Shown one piece after another: positions 33,310-64,000 of a DNA stretch of 64,000 nt. This stretch comes from Candidatus Stoquefichus sp. SB1. Its GTDB lineage: Bacteria; Bacillota_I; Bacilli_A; Erysipelotrichales; Coprobacillaceae. A program made the translations under genes and the position numbers. Location of the stretch: assembly GCF_001244545.1 (NCBI RefSeq), contig NZ_LN852695.1, forward strand, positions 124,001-188,000. Direction: 5' to 3'. The notes below the pieces were generated by a model that saw nothing but the letters and a program-made list of their open reading frames with translations, was not told the DNA's origin and searched no databases. How positions within the stretch are numbered: the first letter of the stretch is position 1; every line of letters begins with the position of its first letter.

Positions 33310-34611
33310 ATGGTTAAAAGTAATTCAATTCATCATTTAACTTATAAACAAAGGCAACACATTGAAACTCTTTTAAATGAATCCGTTAAGCTTTGCAATA
33401 TTGCTTCAGAACTTCATAAGGATCCAAGAGGCATCAAAAAAGAAATTGTCAACCACAGGCAACTCTCCGTTAGACAGAATGCAAAAAACAAATGTGGTTT
33501 GCAGATTGTCTGTAAAAAATCAAGACTCTGTAATAACTGTGAATCTGGTTTATGCAAATACTGCAGCTATGCTAAATGTTCTACTCTCTGCTGTGATTTC
33601 CAGGAACTTCCTGAATGCAAAACAATGAAACGTTTCCCATATGTATGCAATGGCTGTGATAAAATCAAGGAATGCCCTTTACCAAAGGTATTCTATAAGG
33701 CTTCTACTGCTCAAACTGAATATGAATTTAATGTTTCAGAACACAAAAAAGGTCCTCAATTAAATGCAGTTCAAATGAAGCAGCTTGATAAGATTATCAG
33801 TGATGGTGTGAAACGAGGAATAGCCATTGAAGTCATCATAGAAACAAATCATCTTCATATTGCTCCCAGTACTGTCTATCATTACATTGATCTTAACTTA
33901 TTGGAAGTCAAGAACATCGATCTGAAACGTAAAGTCAGATATCACCAAAGGTATACAATAAAGCCAAAAGCGAAGCCATTAAACTATGATTATTTAAATA
34001 ATAGACGATTTGATGACTTTACTCAATATCTACTTGAAAATCCTGGAGTAAATATTTGGCAAATGGATACTTTAATAGGTAAAAAGGGAGAAGGCGAAAA
34101 TACAGTCTTATCTCTTCTCTATACAAAAACAAATCTTCAGTTGTTTTTCAAACTAAGATCAAACTGTGCAGATGAAGTGAATAGAGTTTTTGAAAGAATC
34201 AAAAAGCATCTGGGAAGTGATCTCTTCAAGGAAATATTTGAATGTCTGCTTACAGATAACGGAAAGGAATTTTCAGATCCGTTATCAATTGAAGCAGATT
34301 CTCAGACTGGCGAAACACTTACACATGTTTTTTACTGCAATCCAGGAAGAAGTGACCAGAAAGGAAAATGTGAAAAGAATCATGAACACTTTAGAGAATG
34401 CATTCCTCAGGGTATAAGTTTTAATCCATATATGCATTCAGATATCATAAAGATATCAAATCAGGTAAACAATTATCCCAGAAAAATGTTAGGCTTTCAT
34501 TCACCATATGAAAGTACAATGTCATTACTCAATAAAAAAGTATTTGAGCTAAATCAGCTTCATGAGATACCCGCTCATAAAGTTACACTCAAATACCCTA
34601 GAAAAGTTTAA
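33310..34611 (+). CDS. IS30-family transposase, copy 1
   Basis: The 433-residue protein has an N-terminal HTH (LTYKQRQHIETLLNESVKL), a cysteine-rich region (about residues 60-125, at least ten Cys) that probably binds zinc, and an rve catalytic domain. The DDE residues are in WQMDTLIG (about 256), LTDNGKEFS (about 320) and KCEKNHEHFRE (about 357). A TATAAT box and AAAGGAG precede the ATG. The cysteine cluster is larger than in the founding IS30 protein and points to a distinct subgroup. It is complete and identical to copy 2, which suggests recent activity. Confidence 0.93.
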   Translation: MVKSNSIHHLTYKQRQHIETLLNESVKLCNIASELHKDPRGIKKEIVNHRQLSVRQNAKNKCGLQIVCKKSRLCNNCESGLCKYCSYAKCSTLCCDFQELPECKTMKRFPYVCNGCDKIKECPLPKVFYKASTAQTEYEFNVSEHKKGPQLNAVQMKQLDKIISDGVKRGIAIEVIIETNHLHIAPSTVYHYIDLNLLEVKNIDLKRKVRYHQRYTIKPKAKPLNYDYLNNRRFDDFTQYLLENPGVNIWQMDTLIGKKGEGENTVLSLLYTKTNLQLFFKLRSNCADEVNRVFERIKKHLGSDLFKEIFECLLTDNGKEFSDPLSIEADSQTGETLTHVFYCNPGRSDQKGKCEKNHEHFRECIPQGISFNPYMHSDIIKISNQVNNYPRKMLGFHSPYESTMSLLNKKVFELNQLHEIPAHKVTLKYPRKV

Positions 34612-46373: not shown

Positions 46374-47009
46374 TTAACTCTTTTGTAAAACCAAATGTTT
46401 ATCTGAAATTGCCTTAAAACTATCATCATGTGTCACAACAATAATTGTTTTACCTTGTTCTTTTAATTTAACTAATAATTCTAATATTTTATCTTTATTC
46501 TCTTGATCTAATGAACCTGTTGGTTCATCAGCCAATATAATCTGACTATCATGAACAATCAACCTAGCTAAAGCTATTCTTTGCTTTTCACCACCTGAAC
46601 ATTCACAAACCAACTTATTTTCATAACCATCTAATCCAACCATCTTTAATGCATCAATCATCTTATTTCTATTTTTCTTTCTTAATTTTATTGTTGGAAA
46701 AACAATCTGCAAATTATATAATACTGTTTTTTCTTCTAATAAAGCAAAATTTTGAAAAATAAAACCTATCATTTCACTATGCATCTTCCTTTTATCTTTC
46801 TTTTGAACTTCTTGATGATTCAATAAAATTTTCCCACTATCAATATCCTCTATTAAACCAATTATATTTAATAATGTCGTTTTTCCAACACCAGACTTTC
46901 CCATAATCACCATAATCTCATTTTCTTCAATTTCTAATGAGTAATCTTTAAAAATAACATGATCTCCATATGATTTATTGATTCTTTCTAATTTAATAAT
47001 TGCAGACAT
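46374..47009 (-). CDS. ABC ATPase, exporter module 1 (lactococcin-972 group)
   Basis: The 211-residue ATPase has Walker A GKSGVGKTTLLN (about 36-47), the FQNFALLEEKTV stretch after the Q-loop, the signature CSGGEKQRIALARL in place of LSGGQ, and Walker B ILADEPTGSLD (about 160). The phrase FQNFALLEEKTVLYNL and the cysteine-starting signature are shared with modules 2 and 3. They match the family of ABC proteins linked to lactococcin-972-type bacteriocins. It is 2 bases after its membrane partner. Confidence 0.9.
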   Translation of the reverse strand: MSAIIKLERINKSYGDHVIFKDYSLEIEENEIMVIMGKSGVGKTTLLNIIGLIEDIDSGKILLNHQEVQKKDKRKMHSEMIGFIFQNFALLEEKTVLYNLQIVFPTIKLRKKNRNKMIDALKMVGLDGYENKLVCECSGGEKQRIALARLIVHDSQIILADEPTGSLDQENKDKILELLVKLKEQGKTIIVVTHDDSFKAISDKHLVLQKS

Positions 47010-47011
47010 TT

Positions 47012-49003
47012 TTACACCTCCTTCAATAATTCAATTTTATATATTAAGCGACATGTTTTATAAAAAATATAAAAACCATCAATAACAATCATCATACTTA
47101 AATAATATAACAAATCTTGTAATACCCCTATTTTAACTGCTATTATTATTGGAATCATAAAAGTCATCATATCCAATAAATATAATTCTTTATATAAATG
47201 GATATACTTATATCCATAAATCATTTTTAATGAAATTTCTTTATCATTATTTTTAATATATATATTAACCAATAATTCCAATATCAAAAAATAAGTAAAC
47301 AAATACAATCCTAAAAACAAAACATTGTCAAAAACAACTGGTAAAGCATTTTCTCTTAAAATCCATTGAATATAGATTCCATTATCTTGAATATTTATTT
47401 GATCTCTATCTATTTTATCAGTTAATAATGTTTTATAATAATCAATACTTTTTTCTTTCTTTAAATATAAACTATGATACATATAAGGATAGTCTTCATT
47501 CATAATTAAAATGATAGGATTTTTAATAGAAGTAAGAATAGAAAGTGATGGATCATAAAATTCATATTTTTCTTTTATATATTCTACTTTTGTATTAAGT
47601 GTATATTGATATTGTTTAACATCAATATTTTTATATTCTTGAGGAATCAATAATGTTGGACCTTGAACATTTTTATGGATATTGTATAGTGATAGAAATT
47701 CTTGATTAACAATAATATAAGGAATATATTGATTATTATTTTGACTATTTCTTAAAATATCTGTAAAATCACAAGCTATTGCTCCATTTTGACATAATAT
47801 CTTAGAATAATCTTTTGAATTCTGAATATTTTTTATATCATAAACATTATTAATAATATCTTTTTGCTTATAATAGCTATACAGCATCTGATAATATGGA
47901 TAAGTTGGTAATACACTATATATAATAAAAAATGTAAATATAATCATAAAAATGACTTTACTTATCAGTTGAATAAGAACTAAAGAATGGAAGGATTTTT
48001 TTCGGACGATATTTATATAACTTTTTGTTTTGTATAAATAAAGCATAAAAATAATAACTAATATTACAAATAAGCCTATTGATATAAATATAAATAATAT
48101 AATATCTTTTATAAATGATATAGTATGGCTATTCACTCTTGAAACAAATACTATATAGTATAATAACATTGAAGAAAGTAAGACAATGAAAGATAAACAA
48201 CTTTCCTTTAAAAAATAATTATAGAATATATTGATTTGTTTATATCCCATTAAATTCACAATGGCTATTTCTCTGTACTTTTTAAATAAGTCATATAATA
48301 AACATATTAAAAATGATATAGAAAAGAAAACAAGAACAACATAACTATTATGTGATATCAATTCATTATGTTCTGAAAGTTGTTCTGATATATCATATTG
48401 ACTATCATCAAAATGAATCTTAATAAGTTCTTCAATTTCTCTTTTATCATCATTATTATTTATAAATACATAATAGTTAACATTATTATTAACACTTTTA
48501 TAATCTTTAACAAATTCCCCCATACATCTTTGTTCGTAAATTATATGATTTGTTTTTAAATAATTCTTATTAAATAATTCTATCATTCCACTAGCATTAG
48601 AATCTTTACGAGTTGTCACATACCCTTGACTTATCATATTTCCATAATCAATATTCTGTCCTTGATATTCAAATTGATCTTTCAAAAATGTAAAATATAA
48701 ATTATCTGGATCATAAATATAATTTCTTATAACTTTATCTCCATTATCTAAATATTGATCATATCCCGTTTTAATAGTCATTTTATCTCTGATTGCTAAA
48801 TCTAATAACTGTTTATGAAAAACATCTATTGTTTCTCTATTTGCATTAAATACTGAAAACTCATACCGTTGTTTATGTGATATATTGGTTAATACATTTT
48901 CAACATTTAGTGCTTCAATATCTTCCTTAGATCTATTTTGAAATAAAATACTAAAAAAAAGGGAACTTATTAATAATATAATAAAATATAATTTCTTATT
49001 CAT
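47012..49003 (-). CDS. Large membrane component of exporter module 1 (DUF1430-like, bacteriocin-associated)
   Basis: The 663-residue protein has an N-terminal membrane helix (about 4-22) and an extracellular region of about 200 residues. Four helices follow near 225-245, 265-290, 297-325 and 350-375. After a second extracellular region of about 185 residues come two or three C-terminal helices. This is the layout of the bacteriocin-associated integral membrane family that pairs with lactococcin-972-group ATPases. It is flanked by the secreted peptide gene (18 bases upstream) and the ATPase (2 bases downstream). Whether it exports the peptide, gives immunity, or both is not shown by the sequence. 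Confidence 0.8.
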   Translation of the reverse strand: MNKKLYFIILLISSLFFSILFQNRSKEDIEALNVENVLTNISHKQRYEFSVFNANRETIDVFHKQLLDLAIRDKMTIKTGYDQYLDNGDKVIRNYIYDPDNLYFTFLKDQFEYQGQNIDYGNMISQGYVTTRKDSNASGMIELFNKNYLKTNHIIYEQRCMGEFVKDYKSVNNNVNYYVFINNNDDKREIEELIKIHFDDSQYDISEQLSEHNELISHNSYVVLVFFSISFLICLLYDLFKKYREIAIVNLMGYKQINIFYNYFLKESCLSFIVLLSSMLLYYIVFVSRVNSHTISFIKDIILFIFISIGLFVILVIIFMLYLYKTKSYINIVRKKSFHSLVLIQLISKVIFMIIFTFFIIYSVLPTYPYYQMLYSYYKQKDIINNVYDIKNIQNSKDYSKILCQNGAIACDFTDILRNSQNNNQYIPYIIVNQEFLSLYNIHKNVQGPTLLIPQEYKNIDVKQYQYTLNTKVEYIKEKYEFYDPSLSILTSIKNPIILIMNEDYPYMYHSLYLKKEKSIDYYKTLLTDKIDRDQINIQDNGIYIQWILRENALPVVFDNVLFLGLYLFTYFLILELLVNIYIKNNDKEISLKMIYGYKYIHLYKELYLLDMMTFMIPIIIAVKIGVLQDLLYYLSMMIVIDGFYIFYKTCRLIYKIELLKEV

Positions 49004-49021
49004 AAGTTCCTCTCTCCTTTT

Positions 49022-49357
49022 CTAACCATAGAAACCTTTAAATGAATGTGAATGACTATCGTAACAATCCATTAAGGCTGTAACAGATCTTAATTTATCT
49101 GTTGTTTCAGCAGTAACTGCTTCATTGCCACATTTTACTCTTGCAATTGCTTCAGCTAGGCTATTACCACATGAAACACTTGTTCCTTTAGTAACCCATC
49201 TATCATCAATAGCTCTTGCTGTAACTTGTCTTGTACTTCCACTTCCATTACATGGTATGGTTTGCCAATCAGCCGCTTTAATATTGAACATACCTGAAAA
49301 AAGTAGAGTGCCAAATATTATAAATGAAACAAATATTTTTTTATATTTCATATACAT
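49022..49357 (-). CDS. Secreted four-cysteine peptide 1, candidate bacteriocin
   Basis: The 111-residue protein has a signal peptide of about 28 residues ending in NIKA. The mature part is about 83 residues with four cysteines, at 8, 35, 48 and 70. It ends in HSHSFKGFYG. I do not recognise the mature peptide, and it does not show the glycine/tyrosine pattern of lactococcin 972. It shares four Cys and an H-x-H...G-x-Y ending with peptide 2. Its gene has AAAGGAGG 4 bases before ATG and heads the module 1 operon. A 21-bp-spaced direct repeat lies about 65 bases upstream. Confidence 0.7.
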   Translation of the reverse strand: MYMKYKKIFVSFIIFGTLLFSGMFNIKAADWQTIPCNGSGSTRQVTARAIDDRWVTKGTSVSCGNSLAEAIARVKCGNEAVTAETTDKLRSVTALMDCYDSHSHSFKGFYG

Positions 49358-49419
49358 CTCACCTCCTTTCTTTATTAACTACATTATATCTTATTGCTAA
49401 AATAATTAATGAATTATTA

Positions 49420-49450
49420 GAAATCCGAGTCATTTCACATGAAATCCGTC
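49420..49450. promoter_or_regulatory. Direct repeat between peptide 1 and the response regulator
   Basis: AAATCCG at 49421-49427 recurs at 49442-49448, a spacing of exactly 21 bases. It lies between divergent genes. On the minus side it is about 35 bases from a TATAAT box at 49383-49388; on the plus side it ends some 30 bases before TATAAT at 49481-49486. Two-turn spacing is that of LytTR regulators such as AgrA. Confidence 0.6.
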
Positions 49451-49521
49451 ATTTTTATTTATTTGTATATCAGCTTTTGGTATAATAATTACAAAAACAA
49501 TAAGAAAGGTTGGAATAAACT

Positions 49522-50223
49522 ATGTACAAATTTGCTATTATAGATAATCATCAGTCTGATATTGATAAAATGGTAGAAAAAATCCATCAAGTCTATTTCA
49601 GTAAACATCATATGAATTATGATTGTGATACATATTTGGGATGTCAAACCTTTCCATTTGATAAATATTATGATGCTATTTTCTTAGATATAGAAATGCC
49701 TGAAATGGATGGATTTGCTTTTGCAAAAGAAATTAACCAAAAATATAATCCTAAAATTATTTTTATGACCAATCATGATAATTTAGTTATGTCCGTTTTT
49801 GATTACAAACCTTTTCATTTTATACAAAAAAATAAGTTTGATGAAAGTTCAACACATGTACTTGAACTTCTTTGTGACAATTTATTAAATAAAGTTATAA
49901 AAGTAACAAATACGAACAATGAAATAGATTTTGTAAATCAAAGTCAGATTACTTATATTAATATTTATGAGGGTATAGTTACTCTACATACATTTAACAA
50001 TGAAATATATACAACATGGAAATCATTAACATCTATTTATAAAGAACTCAATCAGCAACTATTTACATATATTAACCAATCAACAATTGTTAATATGAAA
50101 TATATAAAAGAAATTGATCCTCAGTTTACGCATCTTATCTTAAAAGATCGTACTGTATTCAAAATTTCTACTAGAAACAAGTCAACATTTAAGAAAACCT
50201 ATATAAAATTCAGGTTACAATAA
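49522..50223 (+). CDS. LytTR-family response regulator (AgrA-like)
   Basis: The 233-residue protein has a receiver domain (about 1-120) with the phosphoacceptor Asp in AIFLDIEMPEMDG (about residue 56). MTNHDN and FIQKNKFDE supply the Thr/Lys region. A LytTR DNA-binding domain follows (about 130-233; ITYINIYEGIVTLHTFNNEIYTTW, then INQSTIVNMKYIKEID). It lies 1 base before the sensor gene and is divergent from peptide 1. TATAAT at 49481-49486 and AAGAAAGG precede it. It most likely binds the 21-bp-spaced repeats upstream of both peptide genes. Confidence 0.88.
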   Translation: MYKFAIIDNHQSDIDKMVEKIHQVYFSKHHMNYDCDTYLGCQTFPFDKYYDAIFLDIEMPEMDGFAFAKEINQKYNPKIIFMTNHDNLVMSVFDYKPFHFIQKNKFDESSTHVLELLCDNLLNKVIKVTNTNNEIDFVNQSQITYINIYEGIVTLHTFNNEIYTTWKSLTSIYKELNQQLFTYINQSTIVNMKYIKEIDPQFTHLILKDRTVFKISTRNKSTFKKTYIKFRLQ

Positions 50224-50224
50224 T

Positions 50225-51454
50225 ATGTCTGTATTTGATTTATTAATTAATTTTATTGAATCTCTTGGGTTCATTGGTTTCATATATTTCATATTTCATA
50301 AAAGAAAGGGGTTTATCTTATTTTTTATTTTTGTAATAATAAATATGTTAAATGTAACTCTTCATAACTACTATTTACTACCCGAAATTTCGTTAACTAT
50401 CTCGTTGCAATTTATTATATTTTTATATGCATATCTTCTAAACAGAAAGAACATTATTCAAGATATATTTTTAACACTACTCATCTTTAATATAAGTAAT
50501 TTTTCAAATACAACAAGTATGATTATTACCAACATCTTTTACTCATTTCCTTTTTATCGAGGTAATAGTTATTATTTTTTAGCAGTATTTACAAGAATAG
50601 TTTTCTTTTTAATCACTTACATGATTTATCTAATATTGAATAAATCAACTATTACATTTGCTAAAACAAATAAAATTATTTCTATTTTGATAATTCTTTT
50701 CATACTTGAACTACTTTATTCTTCTTGTATAGAAATTGTCTTTTATAATAATATTTTTGATATCAATATGATTTTGACTTTATTGTTTATTAATGTTCTC
50801 GTTATTATTTTATGCTATACTTTTTTTGAATCTCAAAAAGAACAGCTCCATTTACTAAAGTTACAGGAAATAAACTTAAAAAATGAACATCAAATTAAAA
50901 TCAATCATATTAATGATGAAAGTATAAAACATCTTTCTTTATGGAAACATGATATAAATTATGTTTTTACATATATTGAGAATCATATTAAAAATCAAAG
51001 ATATGATAATGCTTTAAAAACTATTTCTATTTATCATGATGTTATCAATAATTATAATTTATTTACCAATACAAATAATGATACATTAAATTCTATTTTA
51101 ATTGAACATATTGATGAACTTATCAAAAACGACATACACATTTATATAAGCACAGATAAAAAGGAAGTTCCATTATCTACTGAACACTACCAACAAATAT
51201 TACATTTATTTTTTAATCACATTATAAAAAATTGTCAATCTGACTATCAAAAAGAAATATGGATCACATATTATACACAATCTCCTTATTTTACATTATC
51301 CTTAGAATATACTTGTCTTGAAGCTACGCTTTATACTTTACACGAGAGTTTTGAAAAAATTGTTAATCAATATGTTGGATTTATAAAAATATCTCACGAA
51401 GATCAAAAAGATATAACTAAAATTATTATTCCTTTAACAGAAAACAATGAATAA
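50225..51454 (+). CDS. AgrC-like sensor kinase with an atypical ATPase domain
   Basis: The 409-residue protein has six or seven N-terminal membrane helices (to about 205) typical of AgrC peptide sensors. A dimerisation helix with the likely phospho-histidine follows in SLWKHDINYVFTYIENHI (about 240). The GHKL ATP-binding part is poorly conserved: an N-box-like HLFFNHIIKNCQ is present near 330, but no G-box (GxGL) is visible before the end at residue 409. It might be a reduced kinase or lack kinase activity. It follows the response regulator by 1 base. Its last codons form half of a terminator with the AgrD end. Confidence 0.78.
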   Translation: MSVFDLLINFIESLGFIGFIYFIFHKRKGFILFFIFVIINMLNVTLHNYYLLPEISLTISLQFIIFLYAYLLNRKNIIQDIFLTLLIFNISNFSNTTSMIITNIFYSFPFYRGNSYYFLAVFTRIVFFLITYMIYLILNKSTITFAKTNKIISILIILFILELLYSSCIEIVFYNNIFDINMILTLLFINVLVIILCYTFFESQKEQLHLLKLQEINLKNEHQIKINHINDESIKHLSLWKHDINYVFTYIENHIKNQRYDNALKTISIYHDVINNYNLFTNTNNDTLNSILIEHIDELIKNDIHIYISTDKKEVPLSTEHYQQILHLFFNHIIKNCQSDYQKEIWITYYTQSPYFTLSLEYTCLEATLYTLHESFEKIVNQYVGFIKISHEDQKDITKIIIPLTENNE

Positions 51455-51474
51455 AGTCAATTATTCATTGTTTT
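51441..51474. terminator. Bidirectional terminator between sensor and agrD
   Basis: AAAACAATGAATAA and TTATTCATTGTTTT are a perfect 14-base inverted repeat with a 6-base loop, with T-runs on both strands. It ends the sensor gene from one side and the exporter 2-agr operon from the other. Confidence 0.85.
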
Positions 51475-51487
51475 TAGTTAAGTATTA

Positions 51488-51628
51488 CTACTTTTCATAC
51501 TTTTTTAAACTGTTTGGTTCTTTATCTTGATATTGATGATTACATGACACTAAATTTACTGCTTGAATAGCAACAAGAAATAATCCTGATGATATAATCA
51601 TTAATAATTTATTTTTTATTTTTTTCAT
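51488..51628 (-). CDS. agrD: AgrD-type cyclic peptide precursor
   Basis: The 46-residue peptide is too short for ordinary gene finders. It has a basic amphipathic leader (MKKIKNKLLMIISSG), a hydrophobic stretch to NLVS, then CNHQY and the acidic/lysine tail QDKEPNSLKKYEK. The pattern Cys, four residues with an aromatic end, then a KEP...SLKK tail is that of clostridial AgrD peptides. The predicted signal is a ring formed by Cys29 and Tyr33. The gene overlaps the 3' end of agrB by 20 bases. Confidence 0.85.
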   Translation of the reverse strand: MKKIKNKLLMIISSGLFLVAIQAVNLVSCNHQYQDKEPNSLKKYEK

Positions 51629-52181
51629 AATCTATTTTTCCTCCTATGGTTAGCATATTTATAATAACAAGCATACTTATTAAAACATTCAAATATGAAG
51701 AGCCTATAAAAAACAAATAAACAACTGCAAATAAATATATACAAATATATATTAATGAGTAGATTTTAAAATTTTTTTTCTTTTTAGATGAGATAAGCTT
51801 ATTGATATTTTGAATTGGACACATTATTAATGTTATAAGGAGTGTTATTATACTTATAATAAACACTTCTACTATATTAAAAGAATGTACTTCTATCATC
51901 ATAATATTAATCACAAACAATCCAACATACGTACATATACACTTTGTATAACTTTTACAATGATATCCCCCTAGTATACTTCGTGAACTTGACATAATTA
52001 ATTCATACATTACTGCCTCAATAAAGTGATCCATTAATAATCCAAATACCAATAACAACACTGTTCCCATTACTGATGATACAGCTAGTTTAGCACCATA
52101 AAGATAAATTTCACGCTCCTCTTTGAGTACATTATTCTCTTCTAAATATAAAATAAGTTTATCTGATAAAGTATAAATCAT
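51609..52181 (-). CDS. agrB: AgrB peptide-processing membrane protease
   Basis: The 190-residue protein has five or six membrane helices and the AgrB catalytic signature SRSILGGYHCKSYTKC. Here His74 and Cys81 match the His and Cys that cleave AgrD in the Staphylococcus enzyme. I start at the ATG at 52181, because the upstream ATG at 52190 is part of the ribosome site AAAAGGATG. It follows ATPase 2 by a few bases and overlaps agrD, so it is the penultimate gene of a run that starts with peptide 2. Confidence 0.93.
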   Translation of the reverse strand: MIYTLSDKLILYLEENNVLKEEREIYLYGAKLAVSSVMGTVLLLVFGLLMDHFIEAVMYELIMSSSRSILGGYHCKSYTKCICTYVGLFVINIMMIEVHSFNIVEVFIISIITLLITLIMCPIQNINKLISSKKKKNFKIYSLIYICIYLFAVVYLFFIGSSYLNVLISMLVIINMLTIGGKIDYEKNKK

Positions 52182-52194
52182 TATTAACATCCTT

Positions 52195-52821
52195 TTATAA
52201 TTTTATAACTTGAGTTGCATACTCTTTTAATGATTCATCATGAGTGACTATAATAATTGTTTTCCCATCTTTTTGCATTTGTTTTAATAACTGACAAACC
52301 TTTTCTTTATTGTGTGCATCTAATGAGCCAGTCGGTTCATCAGCTAAAATGAGTTCGCATGGTTTCAATAATAATCGTGCTAATGCAATTCTTTGTTGTT
52401 CTCCACCAGAACATTTATAGATTTTTTTCTTCTCATATCCCTCTAATCCCACCGTTTTCAATGCTTCCTTAATTTTTTCTTTCTTATTTCTGCTTACATT
52501 ATCTAATGCTAAAGTAAGATTGTATTCTACTGTTTCATTGTCTACTAATGCAAAGTTTTGAAATAAGTATCCTATTTTTTCTCTAAGCATAATCTCTGCC
52601 TTTCTTGAAAAAGGCTTAATATTTTTTTGATCAAATAAGATAATGTCTCCACTATCAGGTTTATCTAATAATCCTATCATATTTAATAAAGTTGATTTCC
52701 CTGAACCTGACTGACCCATAATAACAACAAATTCACTATTATTAACTTCAAAAGACAAATTATTAAATACATGTTTTTCTTGAAAAGATTTTGAAATGTT
52801 TTTTACACTTACAACTTTCAT
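52195..52821 (-). CDS. ABC ATPase, exporter module 2 (lactococcin-972 group)
   Basis: The 208-residue ATPase has Walker A GQSGSGKSTLLNMIGLLDKP (about 35-54), FQNFALVDNETVEYNL, signature CSGGEQQRIALARLLLKP and Walker B ILADEPTGSLD. FALVDNETVE is the most recognisable phrase of the lactococcin-972-group exporters. It lies 18 bases after membrane component 2 and directly before agrB. Confidence 0.92.
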   Translation of the reverse strand: MKVVSVKNISKSFQEKHVFNNLSFEVNNSEFVVIMGQSGSGKSTLLNMIGLLDKPDSGDIILFDQKNIKPFSRKAEIMLREKIGYLFQNFALVDNETVEYNLTLALDNVSRNKKEKIKEALKTVGLEGYEKKKIYKCSGGEQQRIALARLLLKPCELILADEPTGSLDAHNKEKVCQLLKQMQKDGKTIIIVTHDESLKEYATQVIKL

Positions 52822-52839
52822 TTACATCTTCCTTTCCTC

Positions 52840-54900
52840 TTAAATGACTCCACCTTTTAGATAAGAAATGATTCCTTTTTTCTCGAAACGATAAATCATA
52901 ACAACTATAATGAGTACTTCAATACAAATAATAAGAAAAATAAAGTTAATTAATTCCAATAATTGAACTGTATACATTAACCAACTCACTGTAGAGGCAA
53001 TAATTGTTGAAGATAAAATAAATATGAATAACATCCCATACCTTTTCTTTTTATCTCTTCCTAGCATATATTGAATTGCTATTTCTTTTCCAAATTCCTC
53101 TAAATACATTCTTGTTGTAATATAAGCATTGCATATAATAATTAGTAAAAATATACTCATAATCAATAGAAATTCTGGAATATATTCTTGACATCTATCT
53201 ATATAAAATTCATATGAGTTCATACATGATGTCAAACTTGCTGTCTCCAAGTTTTGCCCTTCTAATGCTTCTAATTCAGCAATATATTCATTATAGCTTT
53301 TATGCCTTTTATCAAATAATAATCCTTGTATATCCACATCTACACTATAGTTTTTAACAACACATATAACTGGATTTGTCATTACATATACATATCTAAC
53401 TTTTGGATTAAAAAATTGACCTGTATCTTTAACATAGATTACTTTGTAATTTTGAGGATTATATATTTCCATATCTAATTTTTCTTTTAATTGTTGTGGA
53501 ATAAGAAGTATATTTTCATTATAATCAGAAAGATTTATTTTGTCTCCATCTGTATTATAAAACTGACAGTCTTGTAAATAATATTGATTGCCTTCTAAAT
53601 ATTCATATTGATAATACGTTGCATATTCATCCTCTGAATCATAGAAAGGACTCTCTTTTGAACGCATATAATATTTTTCCATGTCACAAAAAATCTCTTT
53701 ATCAATATAATGATTAAATATAGTTTCGTTATGTATAAATGAACCTCCGATTTGATAATAATTTTCTATATTATCTTTTTGGTTTTGTATGCTGTTATAA
53801 TTCTTTACATAAGGTAAAGAATCCGAAAAAGTTGATATAACAGGCATCACTAATAATACAATCACTACTGCCTTACTAATCCACTGAACAATAACTAGAT
53901 GTCCATATGCCTGATTTGATTTTAAATATTTGATATTTATTGTATATTTTATAACTAAATATATAGCAATATTAACAAATAAAATAATAATTATATAATA
54001 TATATTAACAATTTGATAAGTGTAAAAGTACTCTCTTGTTAATGTATTTATTTCACCTACTTTAATATAACAACCAATAACATTACTCAATACAAAGACA
54101 ATAATTGATATTACGAAAAAAAGCAGAAAATTTTTAATAACAAGTTTTAATACAGAATGACCTAGCATTCTTGATATTAAATATTTCTTATGCTCTTTAA
54201 CAATAATACAAATAAGAATAGATATTAATAAAATAATACATAGTCCTAAATAAGTTGTACTGTAATTATTTATAATTGAGCCATCGTTTGGATAACTCAT
54301 TTCATCAGATTGTGTATCAAAAATCTGTTTAATAGGATAATGCTTTGTAAGAAATTCTTTAAAGTCCTTTACTTCACTTTCTTGATTTGTAAAAATTGAT
54401 ATTCCAAATTTATTAGTTAAATAATTTAATTCATTTATATCTGATAATTGATAAATACGAATAATATCTTGGGTATTTTTAAAAAACTGATTATTTATAA
54501 TTTTGATATACCCTTTACTCTGATTATCACTTAAATCTGTTGTATAGTATTTATTCTTATTATTGTGAGTTTCTATATTTATATAATTTGATAATTGATT
54601 TATATTTGTTAGATAATAATTTACATAAGTATTAATTCCTGCCTCATCCTCATATGATATAATAGTAGAGAGCTTTGTTTGATGAGCATCTGCATAAGAT
54701 AGAATATCATTCATTATATCTTGATAATTATTATTATCTATCTCGATCATTAAATAGTTTTCTGATATTCCCATTTCTTCCTCTAATGTTTGATTAAGAT
54801 TATATATTTTTGTGGCTTCTATTTGATTTTTCTCATAATAAGTACGATTAACGAGAAATATAGATAATACTATTAAAATGAGTATATATATTTTTTTCAT
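52840..54900 (-). CDS. Large membrane component of exporter module 2
   Basis: The 686-residue protein has the same layout as modules 1 and 3. An N-terminal helix (about 3-19) is followed by an extracellular region and a cluster of helices at about 215-235, 250-275, 295-315 and 335-360. A long extracellular part (about 365-560) and three C-terminal helices end the protein. It ends in KGGVI 18 bases before the ATPase. The gene is separated from peptide 2 by a terminator-like hairpin, so it is probably made in lower amounts than the peptide. Confidence 0.8.
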   Translation of the reverse strand: MKKIYILILIVLSIFLVNRTYYEKNQIEATKIYNLNQTLEEEMGISENYLMIEIDNNNYQDIMNDILSYADAHQTKLSTIISYEDEAGINTYVNYYLTNINQLSNYINIETHNNKNKYYTTDLSDNQSKGYIKIINNQFFKNTQDIIRIYQLSDINELNYLTNKFGISIFTNQESEVKDFKEFLTKHYPIKQIFDTQSDEMSYPNDGSIINNYSTTYLGLCIILLISILICIIVKEHKKYLISRMLGHSVLKLVIKNFLLFFVISIIVFVLSNVIGCYIKVGEINTLTREYFYTYQIVNIYYIIIILFVNIAIYLVIKYTINIKYLKSNQAYGHLVIVQWISKAVVIVLLVMPVISTFSDSLPYVKNYNSIQNQKDNIENYYQIGGSFIHNETIFNHYIDKEIFCDMEKYYMRSKESPFYDSEDEYATYYQYEYLEGNQYYLQDCQFYNTDGDKINLSDYNENILLIPQQLKEKLDMEIYNPQNYKVIYVKDTGQFFNPKVRYVYVMTNPVICVVKNYSVDVDIQGLLFDKRHKSYNEYIAELEALEGQNLETASLTSCMNSYEFYIDRCQEYIPEFLLIMSIFLLIIICNAYITTRMYLEEFGKEIAIQYMLGRDKKKRYGMLFIFILSSTIIASTVSWLMYTVQLLELINFIFLIICIEVLIIVVMIYRFEKKGIISYLKGGVI

Positions 54901-54967
54901 ATTATTCTATTTCTCCTCTCTTTATTGATATCAAACCAAAACAAGTTTAGTTTATTGTTCTATTAAA

Positions 54968-55003
54968 AGCAAAGAGGGAATCATCCCTCATTCTTACTTT
55001 GCT
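54968..55003 (-). terminator. Hairpin between peptide 2 and membrane component 2
   Basis: GAGGGA/TCCCTC with outer arms AGCAAAG/CTTTGCT forms a two-part stem, followed on the minus strand by TTTGCTTTTAA. It overlaps the final codons of peptide 2 and probably gives partial termination. Confidence 0.65.
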
Positions 55004-55352
55004 AATTTTGATAAATACCATAATAATGTCTATGCCCTACTTTATAATATTGACTTTGAACATTAATATGACAATCACTCGATTTTTTACCATAGTAAGC
55101 AGCACAAGACACTTCCTCATTTGTATTATTATTTTTCAAATAATTAATATAAGTATATCGTTCACTTTCTCCTCTAAAAGATGCAGCACCATGTAATGTG
55201 TAAAGTGCACAATCAGCTTTAAGTGTTGCTTCATTTTTAAGTGTTGTTTGTGATTGACATGATAAATCAGTATATGCCGCACTAACAAAAGTTAAACTTA
55301 ACGCCATTAATAAAGAAAATAAAGTAAACCCTTTTATCCATTTAAACTTCAT
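55002..55352 (-). CDS. Secreted four-cysteine peptide 2, candidate bacteriocin
   Basis: The 116-residue protein has a signal peptide of about 25 residues ending FVSA. The mature form is about 91 residues, with cysteines at 7, 23, 58 and 69, and ends in GHRHYYGIYQN. The first and last Cys are 62 residues apart, as in peptide 1, although the inner pair differs. I do not recognise it. AAAAGGAGAAGAG precedes the ATG. Its leader contains a hairpin with an exposed AGGAGG and an upstream 21-bp direct repeat. It is the first gene of the exporter 2-agrBD operon. Confidence 0.7.
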   Translation of the reverse strand: MKFKWIKGFTLFSLLMALSLTFVSAAYTDLSCQSQTTLKNEATLKADCALYTLHGAASFRGESERYTYINYLKNNNTNEEVSCAAYYGKKSSDCHINVQSQYYKVGHRHYYGIYQN

Positions 55353-55386
55353 AAATCTCTTCTCCTTTTCTTGATATATTTCGATT

Positions 55387-55435
55387 AATTAGTGTTTTAT
55401 TTAATCCTCCTTTCTTGAAATAAAATACACTAATT
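55387..55435 (-). promoter_or_regulatory. Leader hairpin with an orphan AGGAGG in its loop
   Basis: In the peptide 2 leader, AATTAGTGT...TTTATTT and its complement form a stem of about 16 base pairs. The 15-base loop carries AAAGGAGG. No start codon follows that site; the gene starts about 55 bases later with its own ribosome site. The design resembles the STAB-SD elements that stabilise Bacillus mRNA. Confidence 0.5.
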
Positions 55436-55486
55436 TTTCTATCTTTATTGTATAAAAATTATAATATAAATGAATAATTATTAAAT

Positions 55487-55515
55487 ATCCGTTAGATTTT
55501 ATTTAAAATCCGTTA
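55487..55515. promoter_or_regulatory. Direct repeat upstream of peptide 2
   Basis: ATCCGTTA at 55487-55494 recurs exactly at 55508-55515, 21 bases apart. TCCGTTAAT fits the published LytTR-site consensus. The proximal copy is next to where a -35 would lie for TATAAT at 55458-55463 (minus strand). The distal copy falls inside the 3' end of ATPase 3. Confidence 0.65.
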
Positions 55516-56149
55516 ATTTTTTAAGTTTTATAACTTTTGTTGCATAGGTTATCAATGATTCATCATGAGTCACTAAAATAATTGTTTTTTCCTGATGGTG
55601 AAATTCCTCCAATAGTGTCATTATTTTTATTTTATTCTCTTGATCTAATGATCCCGTTGGTTCATCAGCGAGTATAAGTTCACATGGCTTTAATAATAGT
55701 CTTGCTATTGCAATTCTTTGTTGTTCTCCACCAGAACATTGATATATTTTTTTATGTTCAAAATAATCTAACCCAACTTTATGAAGAGCACTTTTTATTT
55801 TATCGTTTTGGTGGTGAGAATCTCTAATTACAAAACTTAAATTATTGTATACTGTTTCAGTATCAATTAAAGCATAGTTCTGAAAGAGATACCCTATTTT
55901 TATTTTTAATAATTTTTCAGCTCTTTTAGAAAATGGCTTAACATCAGTTTGATCAAATAATGTGATATGTCCTTGATCAGGTCTATCTAACAACCCTATA
56001 ATATTCAAAAGAGTTGATTTCCCACATCCAGACTGTCCTGTTATTATGATAAACTCTCCTTGACTCACTTCCATACAAAATTGATCTAATACTACTTTTT
56101 CTTGATATCTTTTTGAAATATGATCAATTTTTAAAATCGTTTCACTCAT
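55499..56149 (-). CDS. ABC ATPase, exporter module 3 (lactococcin-972 group)
   Basis: The 216-residue ATPase has Walker A GQSGCGKSTLLNIIGLLDRP, FQNYALIDTETVYNNL, signature CSGGEQQRIAIARLLLKP and Walker B ILADEPTGSLD. It overlaps membrane component 3 by 4 bases (ATGA). Its last codons contain one half of the peptide 2 regulatory repeat. Confidence 0.92.
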   Translation of the reverse strand: MSETILKIDHISKRYQEKVVLDQFCMEVSQGEFIIITGQSGCGKSTLLNIIGLLDRPDQGHITLFDQTDVKPFSKRAEKLLKIKIGYLFQNYALIDTETVYNNLSFVIRDSHHQNDKIKSALHKVGLDYFEHKKIYQCSGGEQQRIAIARLLLKPCELILADEPTGSLDQENKIKIMTLLEEFHHQEKTIILVTHDESLITYATKVIKLKKLTDFK

Positions 56150-58257
56150 AATCTTGATTCTACTTTCAATATATTAGCAATATTTGAATTTTCAAACTTT
56201 TTAATAAATCCATATAAAACAATGAATTCAAATCCTAAAGCACAAATATTGAACATAATCACTTCCAAAAAATATACTCTTATAATAGCAATTCCAATTA
56301 TCAATATGGATACATATGTTATAAAAGTATACATATAGAGTTCTCGATATCTTTCTCGAGAACTATACCCATTCATATAACTTAATGCTATTTGTATTTG
56401 ATTTTCTGAAACATAGAAATAAGTTATTTGATAAATAAGAATTGATATAAGTGCAACATAAAGTACAATTGTGAAAAGAGTTTCTTGTAGGGTTCTTTGG
56501 ATAATAGCCAAATTAACAGAAGATATCTTTTCATTCGAATACATTTCTATTGTTTCATTTGTCATTCTTTTGACTTCATTCTGGTAATCTTGAATACTTT
56601 TCTCTTGTGTCAAAAGATTCATATAATATAATCTTGTAGCATCACTTTTATGTGTTACTAAATGGACCATAGGATTTGATAAATAATATGGTTGACTTAA
56701 TTTTATATTAAAGCAATTTCCTGTTTTTTTAACATAAACAACTTTATACTGTTTTTCTCCCATTACTTTCTTCAGATTTTTATTTTTATATTCTTGTGGA
56801 ACCAATAAAACGTCTTCATTAAACTGAGATAAATCTAAAACATGTCCATTTTCATCTTCAATAATTTGATTATCAAAGTAATTAGCATTAGCTAAAACAA
56901 ATGGATAATCAATAACCATATCATCAATCTCTTCATAATCTTCTTCTGGTATGACTTCTAATAAATATTCTTTTGTATGATTTTGATAATAATCAAAATC
57001 TATATAGAAACCACCATTATGAAGATAATAATTAAATACTTCCTCAGTATTTTCTGATGTATTCATATCACTATCAAAATAAGCACTTTGATCAATTAAT
57101 ACCCTATTTTCTACAATTCCTTTATACTGAATTATAGAATCAATAGATGTTTGTATCATTTCAATAAATGGAATCATTAATAAAGAAACAACAATAACCT
57201 TTATTAAAACATTTATTTGGGCAAAATATTTAATTTGATATTCCTGTTTAAGATACTTTAAATGCATATTAAAATATATAAATATATATATGATAATGCC
57301 TAACAGAATCAATAATATCAAAAATATACTCACATATTTTATAAACAATTGATAGTATGCATAATTATAAGCTGCTATTTCTCCTGCATTGATATACATT
57401 GTGATTATCAAAGATATCATAAAAACAAACATTTCAACAATCACAAAATACCCTAGTTTCATTCTCATTATTTTGAATATAGAAAGACCATTTAATCGCA
57501 TAATCATAATTTCTCGTTTGAGTTTCATTAAATAAACAACCAATAATAAACCAATAACAACAATCAATACAACCATAACTTTTAACATATTCATTTGATT
57601 ATCTTGATGAATATTATCAAGTTGAGCAGGTGAATAACCATCAGTTAAATCTTGATAACTTATATGTCCTTTTAAAAAGACATTATTCATATCAGTTAGT
57701 AAATCTTCACGATGATTGCTATATAAAAACAAAGAAATATGGTTATTGTTATTTTTTATAACCTCATCTATTTGATAAAAATTATGAATACGATATTGAT
57801 CATGAAAATCATGAAAGAATTCTTTATTCACCGTTACCATAACTCCACTATTATTTGGATCATTTTGATACGTAGTATAATATTGATGCCTATCATATTG
57901 ACGAAAATCTATTGTTTGATTTTTATCAGAATAACTTATCCCATTGAGTATATCTGATTGATCAGTATATAAATAATAATTACTAAAATGAACTCCACCT
58001 TGATTATCTCCAGTCACCATCAACATAGTTAAATGATGTTCTTGACAATAATCAATTAATGACATAACACCTTCTTTTTGATGTTCATTTTGAAATTGAC
58101 TCCAAAGCATTATGGTTTCTTTTTGAATTTGACTAGATACATAGTCCTGAATAGCACCTAACTGATAATATTGCACATTTTCCATATTCACAAAACTCAA
58201 ATATCCGATTATCACAGAAATGAAAATTGTTATTAGCCAAATTCCCCTCTTAATCAT
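56146..58257 (-). CDS. Large membrane component of exporter module 3
   Basis: The 703-residue protein shares the two-extracellular-domain layout of modules 1 and 2. An N-terminal helix (about 5-23) is followed by helices at about 225-245, 270-290, 305-330 and 345-370, and three near the C-terminus from about 595. GAAGGAGTGATAAT precedes the ATG. Unlike modules 1 and 2, no secreted peptide gene lies before it. A strong terminator sits just 23 bases upstream of the start codon. Confidence 0.8.
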   Translation of the reverse strand: MIKRGIWLITIFISVIIGYLSFVNMENVQYYQLGAIQDYVSSQIQKETIMLWSQFQNEHQKEGVMSLIDYCQEHHLTMLMVTGDNQGGVHFSNYYLYTDQSDILNGISYSDKNQTIDFRQYDRHQYYTTYQNDPNNSGVMVTVNKEFFHDFHDQYRIHNFYQIDEVIKNNNNHISLFLYSNHREDLLTDMNNVFLKGHISYQDLTDGYSPAQLDNIHQDNQMNMLKVMVVLIVVIGLLLVVYLMKLKREIMIMRLNGLSIFKIMRMKLGYFVIVEMFVFMISLIITMYINAGEIAAYNYAYYQLFIKYVSIFLILLILLGIIIYIFIYFNMHLKYLKQEYQIKYFAQINVLIKVIVVSLLMIPFIEMIQTSIDSIIQYKGIVENRVLIDQSAYFDSDMNTSENTEEVFNYYLHNGGFYIDFDYYQNHTKEYLLEVIPEEDYEEIDDMVIDYPFVLANANYFDNQIIEDENGHVLDLSQFNEDVLLVPQEYKNKNLKKVMGEKQYKVVYVKKTGNCFNIKLSQPYYLSNPMVHLVTHKSDATRLYYMNLLTQEKSIQDYQNEVKRMTNETIEMYSNEKISSVNLAIIQRTLQETLFTIVLYVALISILIYQITYFYVSENQIQIALSYMNGYSSRERYRELYMYTFITYVSILIIGIAIIRVYFLEVIMFNICALGFEFIVLYGFIKKFENSNIANILKVESRL

Positions 58258-58279
58258 ATTATCACTCCTTCATATAGAC

Positions 58280-58302
58280 AAAAAAGGGGAATCCCCCTTT
58301 TT
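58280..58302 (-). terminator. Strong terminator immediately before exporter module 3
   Basis: On the minus strand AAAAAGGGG pairs with CCCCTTTTTTT around GATT. It would stop transcripts coming from the small membrane protein gene, or act as an attenuator for module 3. The rest of 58303-58500 has no convincing gene. Confidence 0.8.
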
Positions 58303-58500
58303 GGTTAATTACATTCTCATTCATTATCAAATTCAAACCAGTTATTTAAAACATATATGAAATATTTCTTTTAAAAATATCAATTTCACTTTTTCCAACC
58401 ATTACAATAAAACAATAATTAACCTTCTTTTGGAATCATTTATTATCACATAACTAAGTTTTTTTACTTGAAGTAAAGATGCTGTGTAGTTATATTTTAT

Positions 58501-58713
58501 TTATCTATGTGAAATGAAATCTTGATACATATGATAAACTTTCATAATGCTTTTATAAACAAACAATATCTCTCCGACAATAAGAACAAGTATTCCACTC
58601 CATGAAAAAACACTAGAAATACTCGATACACTTGTTCCTGACAACATTGAACTAACGCCAATCATCAAAACACCCAATATAAAATACTCAATAACTCTTT
58701 TCATAAGACTCAT
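58501..58713 (-). CDS. Small two-helix membrane protein
   Basis: I do not recognise this protein of about 70 residues. It has two hydrophobic segments (about 8-25 and 38-56) rich in Gly, Ser and Val, and a C-terminal YHMYQDFISHR. It starts at the ATG at 58713 (or 58704); the upstream ATG at 58728 lies in the ribosome site AGAGGAGGT. Position ahead of module 3 suggests an immunity or accessory peptide, but no motif supports that. Confidence 0.55.
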   Translation of the reverse strand: MSLMKRVIEYFILGVLMIGVSSMLSGTSVSSISSVFSWSGILVLIVGEILFVYKSIMKVYHMYQDFISHR

Positions 58714-58994
58714 AACCTCCTCTTTCATTATTTTATTATAAATATAAAAGACATTACAAAAAGAAGATATTTATCAATAAATACTAACTCCCTAAATGAA
58801 ATGTCTTTTATAAATTATATATGTTTGTCCCCTCAGCATATATCCTTATACTTATATTATATACCATAAATATGGAATTTTTGTGAATATATTCACTTAT
58901 TTGTTTCTGAAAGTTTTTAGAAAAGTTCTGAAAAATATCACAATCATTATTCATTTGTGATATGATAAGAACATATGAAAGGAATGTGATAGAA

Positions 58995-61589: not shown

Positions 61590-63443
61590 TTATTCATTTC
61601 TTAAAACGTCCTCAATAGACAGATTTCTTATCTGTATACCATTTATAATAAAAATACAAATCATTAATAAACTTATTTCTACAATAAGCCAAATGATATT
61701 TTGATAAATCATATTTTTGTCTATTGAAAAAAGACAGATAATAATTATTGATACAATAATAAATAAGAAAATTGCAATAAGAATTTGATAAAAGGTTTCA
61801 ATAATAACTATTTTCATTATATCTTTATTACTTAATCCATTAATCAATGATAAAACAAATTCTTTTTGACGTGACTGAAAATGACGCAAAGACATCATAA
61901 CGGTTATATATATCGTTCCTATAATAATGATAGGAATAAATAGTTGTTTCATTTTTTCTGTATGAGCATTTATCTCATTAAGGACAGTTGTATTTTGAAA
62001 ATCATCATTAATAGATAATTGATCCATTTGATTCAATTTTTCTACTAACTTGAGATGAGTTTCAAGATTTTTTGAAAATAGTGTATAACCAATAAACTTA
62101 TTATCATTGGTTTGTTCTTGATAAATCCTCATTAATATCTCATAGGGAACATATATACAATATTTATTTGTTGTATAATGATTGATTTCACCCTCATTTA
62201 AAACACCTTTTATATTTTGATTCATTGTTTTTGTTATCCAATAAGGATTATTTTCATTTTCTATTCGAATATCTATTTCACCATCAAAATAGTTGGTTGA
62301 AAGATAATTTCTTTTCATTAATTGATAAACATCATAACTTAATATAATGGCTTCTTTATCTAACAAATGATATTGATATTCTAATTTGTCTGTTATTTTA
62401 TTTTCTTCAAAATAAGGTAAAACATCTATTGTCTGATTCCATAAAGTCATTTTTGAATAAATATATGGATAAACTTTATCAGCAGAAATAGAATCTAAAA
62501 TTTGATTATCCATAATTTGATTTGTTGCTTGAATATGCTGACCATTACTTTGACTGGTTATATATACTTGATTATCAGATAATGCTAACAAATGATTGGT
62601 GCTTGTTTTCTGATAATAATGAATACCTGTTATAACAGAAAATATCATGATAAAAGATGTTGCCATTATCAAAATCATATTTCTTTGTTTTTTCTTAAAA
62701 ACATGAAAATATCTTTTGACATAACTGTTTAGAAATTTTAAATCTGATTGAGATTTATGCAGAATCAATTGCTTATGATCCTGATTTAAAGAATGATGAA
62801 CACAATTTAAATGTAAATTTTGAATTTGATAAATACTATCAGCATATTCTTTTGCTTTAAGACTATGACTTGCTAAAATAATGCATTTCTTCTGTTCTTT
62901 TGCCAACTGCCTGATTAACATAAGAATTTTCTCTTCATTTTGTGAATCCAAATAACTTGTTGGTTCATCTAATATAATCACTTCACTATCTTTGGCTAAT
63001 GCACAAGCTATTGCTAATCGTTGTCTTTCACCACCAGATAAAGTATCAATTGATTGATCTAATGGAACATTTAAATGTACTTGATGAAATAAGTTTTGAA
63101 TATCTCGATCACTAAATTGTTTTTGTACCATTTGAGCATAATGATTAATATTCTCTTTCACATTATAGTAATCAATTAACATAGAATCTTGTAAAACATA
63201 AGAAATGTGATATCTTCTTAAATGAGCCTTTAATTGCTGATTTGATAATGAAATCAAATGATTATCTAAACTATACTGATAATCTTTTTGTTTAACCAAT
63301 AAAGCCAATCTATACAATAATGCTGTCTTTCCAGAACCACTTTCTCCACAAATAAGTGTTACTTCTCCACACTTGGCAACAAATTCTACATTTTCTAATA
63401 TTTTTCTTTGATACGATATATTCAAGTTTTGTATTTTCAGCAT
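61590..63443 (-). CDS. MacB-like ABC transporter: ATPase fused to FtsX-type permease
   Basis: The 617-residue protein has an N-terminal ATPase (about 1-210): Walker A GESGSGKTALLYRLALL (about 33-49), signature LSGGERQRLAIACALA, and Walker B IILDEPTSYLD. A membrane helix (about 255-275), an extracellular region (about 280-490) and three C-terminal helices complete it. This is the reverse-MacB order of ABC-2 and FtsX permeases in Firmicutes, commonly linked to peptide export or antimicrobial resistance. It shares one base with the upstream permease gene (TAATG) and so forms a two-protein transporter with it. It differs from modules 1-3, which keep ATPase and membrane parts separate. Confidence 0.88.
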   Translation of the reverse strand: MLKIQNLNISYQRKILENVEFVAKCGEVTLICGESGSGKTALLYRLALLVKQKDYQYSLDNHLISLSNQQLKAHLRRYHISYVLQDSMLIDYYNVKENINHYAQMVQKQFSDRDIQNLFHQVHLNVPLDQSIDTLSGGERQRLAIACALAKDSEVIILDEPTSYLDSQNEEKILMLIRQLAKEQKKCIILASHSLKAKEYADSIYQIQNLHLNCVHHSLNQDHKQLILHKSQSDLKFLNSYVKRYFHVFKKKQRNMILIMATSFIMIFSVITGIHYYQKTSTNHLLALSDNQVYITSQSNGQHIQATNQIMDNQILDSISADKVYPYIYSKMTLWNQTIDVLPYFEENKITDKLEYQYHLLDKEAIILSYDVYQLMKRNYLSTNYFDGEIDIRIENENNPYWITKTMNQNIKGVLNEGEINHYTTNKYCIYVPYEILMRIYQEQTNDNKFIGYTLFSKNLETHLKLVEKLNQMDQLSINDDFQNTTVLNEINAHTEKMKQLFIPIIIIGTIYITVMMSLRHFQSRQKEFVLSLINGLSNKDIMKIVIIETFYQILIAIFLFIIVSIIIICLFSIDKNMIYQNIIWLIVEISLLMICIFIINGIQIRNLSIEDVLRNE

Positions 63444-64000
63444 TATTTATCCCTTCTTTTCACTATAAGTGGATAGACCAGTTCTATAATCAAAACAATA
63501 AATATAATCATGAAAAATGAAATAAATGTTAATTGAGTTTTACCATACATTAATTGATTAAGTACGATTGTTTCAATAATCATTCCTATGATACAAATGA
63601 TGCTATATAATAGTGTATACAAAAGATACTTATTCATAAAAATTCTTCTGATATTCTGCTCAGTCAATCCCATATTTCTTAAATATGTTCTCATTTCATT
63701 TTCTTCTGATAACTTCTGTTTCTTATGATGATACTGTGTAATAAGTAACAAAGCTAATAAGCATCCTCCAACAAGTTGAATAATCCTTTGCATACTTTGG
63801 ACTGATTCTTGTAAAGATTTTGAATTAAGATAAATATGTTTAGCATTTAAACCTATCTCATTAACAGCATTCATAACATCACTTAAATAAGTAAGATCAT
63901 CTATTTCCAATACATAACAATTTGGTTTCCATGATGTATATTTTATTTTTTGTGTGACATATTGTTTTTTTTCTTCAGGAACTTCGTTAATAAATGTCTC
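63443..64000 (-). CDS. ABC transporter permease, FtsX-like, C-terminal part
   Basis: The frame stays open to the window edge, so the 5' end is missing. The 185 residues seen contain an extracellular tail, then membrane helices near residues 72-92, 120-140 and 150-172 (counted from the edge), joined by MRTYLRNMGLTEQNIRRIFMNKY. This is the coupling-helix region of FtsX permeases. It precedes the fused ATPase-permease. A TTG at 63910 could be taken for a start, but upstream codons are open without a stop. Confidence 0.75.
   Translation of the reverse strand, partial: ETFINEVPEEKKQYVTQKIKYTSWKPNCYVLEIDDLTYLSDVMNAVNEIGLNAKHIYLNSKSLQESVQSMQRIIQLVGGCLLALLLITQYHHKKQKLSEENEMRTYLRNMGLTEQNIRRIFMNKYLLYTLLYSIICIIGMIIETIVLNQLMYGKTQLTFISFFMIIFIVLIIELVYPLIVKRRDK

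Follow-up and report, generated by a model that had tools for sequence, protein, structure and literature searches.

Modules of the lactococcin 972 (Lcn972) type are widespread in Bacillota, and two of their active products are the closest described relatives of the system considered here. Streptococcin B of Streptococcus pneumoniae, encoded by scbABC, is an active Lcn972-like bacteriocin with a ComE site in its promoter. It needs no dedicated transporter, and its authors point out that the functions of the B and C genes, and with them the roles of the Lcn972-like membrane protein and ATPase, are experimentally unverified in any Lcn972 locus (PMC11796350). Mediterrocin of Mediterraneibacter gnavus is an active gut example, Sec-dependent and accompanied by a DUF1430 protein, whose 89-residue mature form yields an Lcn972-like model despite 18% identity (PMC12345188). 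The locus described below comes from a bacterium of gut type, Candidatus Stoquefichus sp. SB1. It lies at positions 46374-58257 of a 64,000-nucleotide window (G000:C5:124001-188000 of a 3.59-Mb genome), with a flanking open reading frame (ORF) that extends to 58728. Three pairs of a membrane protein and an ATPase (MEM1-ABC1 to MEM3-ABC3), two secreted peptides (PEP1 and PEP2) and an agr quorum-sensing set lie together in this region, which we read, at a probability of roughly 0.7, as a quorum-controlled bacteriocin and self-immunity island.

The likeness to streptococcin B is twofold: the gene of a secreted Lcn972-like peptide stands ahead of genes for a predicted immunity protein and a transporter protein, and a LytTR-family regulator answers to a peptide pheromone, ComE doing so there (PMC11796350) and the present regulator by prediction. 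The peptide sequences, however, are unrelated, those of the present locus bearing an HxH motif, and whereas the streptococcal pheromone CSP is encoded elsewhere, the gene for a predicted cyclic agr pheromone here sits in the same gene run as a module. Mediterrocin shares a Sec-signalled peptide, a DUF1430 protein and an ABC protein in one cluster of a gut Bacillota; its paper makes no mention of agr, its cluster has mobile elements and another regulator, and a single mature peptide was characterised (PMC12345188), in contrast to the two peptides found here. To lactococcin 972 itself (PF09683, TIGR01653; structure 2lgn), the resemblance lies in operon make-up and perhaps in the modelled fold of PEP2, and not in sequence: no sequence model matches, the mature peptides are about 90 residues long by inspection as opposed to 66, and the HxH motif sets them apart. 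The sequence-only reading of this DNA had stated that no link was established between such exporters, agr signalling and this type of peptide. For agr the statement stands, as no paper joining agr to an Lcn972-like cluster was found in the open-access literature (subscription papers lay outside that scope); for quorum control at large it does not, streptococcin B and ComE being a published case (PMC11796350). TMcin (PMC12328743) was also checked and is unrelated. Each ingredient of the locus resembles known things, and it is their combination that appears to be undescribed.

Peptides and their membrane-protein/ATPase modules

All of these genes are present as open frames (Table 1). Read from right to left on the minus strand, MEM3-ABC3, which has no peptide, is followed by the single gene run PEP2-MEM2-ABC2-agrB-agrD; beyond agrD, a response regulator and a receptor occupy the plus strand, and PEP1-MEM1-ABC1 follows on the minus strand. 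The earlier picture of three pairs sharing the CSGGE signature, two of them headed by a secreted four-Cys peptide, with an agr set in the same run, is thereby upheld.

Both peptides begin with a stretch resembling a signal peptide of Sec type, and their mature parts, as predicted, contain four Cys each. They had been described as unrecognised, and so they are: neither matches a Pfam or NCBIfam family up to E 1, including the Lcn972 models PF09683 and TIGR01653, which do match the peptides of loci L062 and L232, and PADLOC matches were limited to flanking ABC-permeases, mostly to their ATPase parts, with none to PEP1 or PEP2. A search of 60 related genomes returned a PEP1 relative in one further genome and PEP2 relatives in three, and additional relatives were found beside membrane genes in L050, L057 and L058. 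The same gene order recurs with them: PEP1-type homologues stand directly ahead of a MEM-ABC pair in L012 and L058, and PEP2-type homologues do so in L013 (two), L015, L016, L050 and L057. The Lcn972 family has this order too, its peptide gene being followed by one for a large membrane protein and then by one for an ABC protein of the TIGR03608 type. Across the aligned peptides the C-terminal HxH is invariant, and of the cysteines mostly the first alone is kept, which disposes of the four-Cys pattern as a family signature and as the peptide type proposed earlier. A less similar HxH peptide occurs in L060, a locus that also carries agrB. The PEP1 and PEP2 types form two peptide groups, both strict in their HxH signature, that escape current models of bacteriocins. 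Elsewhere in the same genome a classical Lcn972 peptide (PF09683 E 3.6e-06) is encoded separately, together with a receptor, a LytTR regulator, MEM and ABC (L062:6328-11271, C5 ~704-709 kb).

The structural model of PEP2 has an overall predicted local distance difference test (pLDDT) score of 82.6 and is a confident all-beta domain, with pLDDT at about 90 or higher from residue 31 onward. It superposes on lactococcin 972 (2lgn) over 66 of 66 residues with a root-mean-square deviation of 2.0 A and a Z of 6.9, a value below 8 and in the range of common folds. This is suggestive, not proof, of a lactococcin-972-type beta-sandwich in PEP2. The top structural match of the model is 9hkj, labelled 'Formosin D' (Z 7.1), for which no paper was identified; searching solved structures by sequence with the PEP2 relatives brought up nothing convincing.

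The family assignment of the partner proteins is graded in a similar way. CSGGE is found in each of the three ATPases, for which TIGR03608 (L_ocin_972_ABC) is the best NCBIfam match; ABC2 passes the cut-off of 254.85 bits (269.2), and ABC1 (234.6) and ABC3 (243.4) fall just below it. MEM2 and MEM3 score 42.0 bits (E 4.4e-11) and 43.9 bits (E 1.1e-11) against TIGR01654, whose cut-off is 189.35, and MEM2 is likewise sub-threshold against PF07242, the DUF1430 model (23.4 vs 28.2). MEM1 matches neither model nor any other NCBIfam family, and in Pfam reaches FtsX PF02687 only below threshold (E 0.01); it directly matches MEM3 (E 1.8e-7) and MEM2 (E 1.5e-4). The DUF1430 likeness claimed earlier for all three membrane proteins therefore survives as a weak one for MEM2 and MEM3 and fails for MEM1.

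In the model of MEM2 (AF2, pLDDT 83.4), the element list reads as two FtsX/MacB-like halves, each made up of one transmembrane helix, then an extracellular domain, then three further helices. Among solved structures the model comes nearest to YbbP (Foldseek E 1.2e-10; VIA Z 14.7), BceB (VIA Z 12.4), LolC/E and MacB. The model places MEM2, the membrane protein for which it was built, in the MacB/BceAB/YbbAP-type permease class, as a statement of fold and not of function. The predicted two-half permease and the separate ATPase are shared with BceAB, YbbAP and MacB; identity in the structural alignments is about 10%, however, and the extracellular domains of BceB and MacB are not the same in number or position. 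Members of the MacB/BceAB/YbbAP/LolCDE class work on substrates on the outer side of the membrane, and BceAB releases lipid II-cycle targets from antibiotics.

What the MEM-ABC pairs do is the point at which readings first diverge. The sequence-only reading had called them exporter modules, and dedicated export of the peptides would agree with the family name of TIGR03608 ('putative bacteriocin export') and with peptide, MEM and ABC genes lying strictly side by side. Both peptides carry Sec-type signals of their own, however, and the MacB/BceAB/YbbAP/LolCDE-like fold is that of a class acting on the membrane's outer side. Pairs with no peptide nearby also exist (module 3, two in L017, and one each in L053 and L061), and neither of the two described relatives, streptococcin B (PMC11796350) and the Sec-dependent mediterrocin (PMC12345188), is said to rely on a dedicated transporter. 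Export is on these grounds unlikely. Immunity by target protection is the more likely reading of the pairs, because the peptides have Sec-type signals and the permease model resembles YbbP, BceB, MacB and LolC/E; the peptide-less pairs fit it too. PEP1 and PEP2 would leave the cell via Sec and act outside it as small bacteriocins, probably at the cell-wall surface of close competitors, and each MEM-ABC pair would be an ATP-driven machine of MacB/BceAB type, releasing the producer's own target from the peptide without exporting it. The L017 pairs (L017:4361-10040, C5 ~760-766 kb) stand in tandem in the same genome.

Module 3, which would serve immunity only, may be such a case of immunity alone. 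Ahead of MEM3, positions 58258-58500 are non-coding and 58501-58728 encode a small membrane ORF, so that this genome has no peptide of its own there, whereas a sister species has one at the matching position (L013:10294-10635), next to a MEM 72% identical to MEM3. A remnant of that peptide ahead of MEM3 was considered and rejected, no convincing match to the sister-species peptide region being found.

It could also be proposed that the peptides are not antibacterial at all, but signals or surface ligands that MEM-ABC senses as a BceAB-like sensory module, as the BceB-like structural matches and the regulator genes near several loci would allow. Such a role is slightly less likely than export: the PEP2 model resembles lactococcin 972, Lcn972-like bacteriocins shown to be active are encoded in operons composed in the same way (PMC11796350, PMC12345188), and the candidate operators sit ahead of the peptide genes themselves.

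Promoter repeats and the agr set

In the promoters of PEP1 and PEP2, direct repeats of the ACGGATTT type recur at a distance of exactly 21 bp, and a -10-like element comes 31 nt beyond them. For repeats recognised by LytTR regulators, a separation of 12 bp is the usual one and 11 or 13 bp less common, and their place is just upstream of the -35 region (PMC6193735); in spacing and position the 21-bp repeats fit such operators. In both promoters 21 bp is the best among spacings of 14-39 (shuffle p in Table 1). The same range tested more widely gave 20 or 21 bp as the best spacing in 11 of 13 peptide or ABC promoters and in none of nine comparison regions. Such repeats precede peptide genes in the window, L012, L015, L016, L058 and L060, as well as a window-adjacent ABC gene, and the shuffle p combined over nine regions comes to 7e-12, a figure to be read with caution since some regions are related and the upstream regions were hand-chosen. 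For the Lcn972-type peptides of L062, L079 and L232, upstream repeats at 20-21 bp do not reach significance in the shuffle test. Exact matches to the operator number two in the whole 3.59-Mb genome, one in the PEP1 and one in the PEP2 promoter. The locus joins Lcn972-like modules to a self-contained signal, with a candidate operator defined for each peptide gene. Repeats 21 bp apart, CGAATTCTAG and CGAATTCCAG, also accompany a 704-aa ABC-permease gene at the right edge of the window (63443-64000, continuing in L067:444-4675), which is transcribed away from another, related pair of receptor and regulator genes (L067).

The agr set is recognised by family models in three of its four members: AgrB retains the catalytic H77 and C84, AgrD exceeds its TIGR04223 cut-off of 19 bits, and the response regulator combines PF04397 with PF00072 and keeps the receiver Asp (LDIEMP). 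By inspection AgrD contains SCNHQYQDKEP, in which the predicted pheromone ring is CNHQY, followed by the charged tail QDKEP. AgrB would trim and cyclise AgrD to this thiolactone, the AgrC-like receptor would sense it, and the LytTR regulator would bind the repeat pair upstream of each peptide gene. Since agrB begins 4 bp past ABC2 and, with agrD, closes the PEP2-MEM2-ABC2 run, activation would raise pheromone output as well, implying positive feedback. Staphylococcal agr (AgrBDCA) offers the nearest parallel in AgrB H77/C84, AgrD, the LytTR regulator and a repeat spacing of about 21 bp; it differs in that receptor and regulator here lie on the strand opposite agrBD, that the receptor lacks ATP-binding motifs, and that the set would be dedicated to bacteriocin modules.

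The receptor is where the locus departs from the textbook agr mechanism. Compared with AgrC and the receptors of L079, L062 and L059 (alignment A10), the window receptor, its sister-species orthologue (L014:1320-2555) and a paralogue beyond the window's right edge (L067:3449-4675) have kept the H-box and lost the N-box Asn along with the ATP-lid/G2 stretch. The Asn is replaced by His in the window and in the sister species and by Gln in the paralogue. Pfam HATPase_c_5 gives no match in the window receptor or the sister orthologue and a sub-threshold one in the paralogue, whose ATP motif has probably been lost as well. A profile of the receptor set matches the AgrC structures 6e52 and 4bxi. It is conceivable, if doubtful, that a pseudokinase agr receptor serves a new HxH family of Lcn972-fold bacteriocins, its signal reaching the LytTR regulator without classical autophosphorylation. 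Module-adjacent LytTR regulators with Glu in place of the phospho-acceptor Asp occur in L016:866-1558, L050, L057 and L058.

Recurrence and weighing of the evidence

In the sister species, PEP2-MEM2-ABC2-agrB-agrD and the histidine kinase and response regulator are kept in order, and three peptide genes lie under a common promoter block with the same repeat spacing. At the PEP1 position there is a different secreted peptide (L014:3515-3895) with two ABC-permease genes under this promoter block, which suggests exchange of cargo at an agr-controlled site. Among 43 genomes of the family, the membrane protein is matched in 21 and AgrB in 26, and the two are neighbours in three places: the window, the sister species and L060, the last from another genus. 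Rough arithmetic gives about 0.2 AgrB neighbours expected by chance among some 20 family modules, against the three seen, in two lineages. Outside the family, an ATPase-alignment search of genome and viral contigs also brought in many unrelated ABC loci, and its results serve as examples, not rates. Among the matches listed, a Bacillus sp. (L079) has peptide, MEM, ABC, agrB (frame interrupted), agrD, receptor and regulator consecutively; in G098, of another family (L232), a regulator, a transposase-split receptor, agrD and agrB are followed by an Lcn972 peptide, MEM and ABC; and in L233 and L234 a distance of 4-9 kb, occupied by other genes or insertion sequences, separates the agr set from the module.

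These data bear on whether the agr set is instead an independent neighbour that does not regulate the modules, a proposal that would account for the majority of family MEM modules without agr and for the loss of the pheromone Cys in the sister species. It is as improbable as a signalling role of the peptides, given that agrB belongs to the ABC2 gene run and the order is kept in the sister species, that exact operator matches occur at PEP1 and PEP2 only, and that other lineages also have agr next to modules of this kind, with more such neighbours in the family than the rough chance estimate. Density-controlled peptide production and immunity, as suggested from the sequence alone, instead draws support from linkage, from the Lcn972-like PEP2 model, from LytTR-type operators and from agr recurrence.

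Several observations nevertheless weigh against a quorum-controlled bacteriocin island. On the peptide side, no family model recognises PEP1 or PEP2; Foldseek returns no significant match for the PEP2 model, and other, unrelated beta-sandwiches score nearly as high as lactococcin 972 in the VIA list; and the fold argument concerns PEP2, the one peptide modelled. A profile comparison of PEP1 with PEP2 aligns mainly the signal region and first Cys at a probability of 20%, so profile-based linking of the two was rejected and they are grouped by gene context and HxH only. On the regulatory side, the operator pattern was derived from the same two sites that it matches, which leaves uniqueness as its one independent feature, and ordinary phosphotransfer is doubtful because the receptor lacks ATP-binding residues. 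Most MEM modules of the family have no nearby agr. In the sister species AgrD (L014:1010-1159) reads SRGHQY where the window has SCNHQY; with the ring Cys lost, no thiolactone ring is expected there, its agrB includes a run of N, and agr may be dispensable in that species.

Feature inventory and neighbouring sequences

Table 1. Features of the locus in window coordinates, with the evidence for each.
Feature	Position	Strand	Evidence or remark
ABC1, module 1 ATPase	46374-47009	-	TIGR03608 best match; CSGGE
MEM1, module 1 membrane protein	47012-49003	-	sub-threshold FtsX PF02687; matches MEM3 and MEM2 in own genome
PEP1, secreted peptide, C-terminal HSHSF	49022-49357	-	signal-like N-terminus; homologues directly ahead of MEM
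Putative -10 of PEP1, TATAAT	49383-49388	-	read from sequence; 31 nt past second repeat
Candidate operator ahead of PEP1, TGACGGATTT + CTCGGATTT, 21 bp apart	49421-49451	-	shuffle p 0.0075
LytTR response regulator (AgrA-like)	49522-50223	+	PF04397 E 1.2e-13; PF00072 E 1.3e-10
AgrC-like sensor	50225-51454	+	H-box kept; N-box Asn, G-box/ATP lid lost
agrD, predicted pheromone precursor	51488-51628	-	TIGR04223 28.3 bits
agrB, predicted pheromone-processing protease	51609-52190	-	PF04647 E 1.8e-30; H77, C84
ABC2, module 2 ATPase	52195-52821	-	TIGR03608 above cut-off
MEM2, module 2 membrane protein	52840-54900	-	TIGR01654 E 4.4e-11, sub-threshold; AF2 model
Possible attenuator: terminator-like hairpin in the PEP2-MEM2 gap	54974-54989	-	weak: 3 such sites in region vs 1.3 in shuffles
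PEP2, secreted peptide, C-terminal HRHYY	55002-55352	-	homologues ahead of MEM; Lcn972-like beta-sandwich model
Putative -10 elements of PEP2, TATAAT (55458-55463) and TACAAT (55447-55452)	55447-55463	-	read from sequence
Candidate operator ahead of PEP2, TAACGGATTT + TAACGGATAT, 21 bp apart	55485-55515	-	shuffle p 0.0025
ABC3, module 3 ATPase	55499-56149	-	TIGR03608 below cut-off; 3' end overlaps PEP2 operator
MEM3, module 3 membrane protein	56146-58257	-	TIGR01654 E 1.1e-11, sub-threshold; no peptide ahead
Small membrane ORF, 75 aa	58501-58728	-	59% identical to sister-species L013:9590-9814; no NCBIfam family

Elsewhere in the window, two identical 433-aa transposase-like ORFs stand in tandem at 33310-34611 and 34976-36277, and a T-box leader lies upstream of a methionyl-tRNA synthetase-like gene at 21279-21473.

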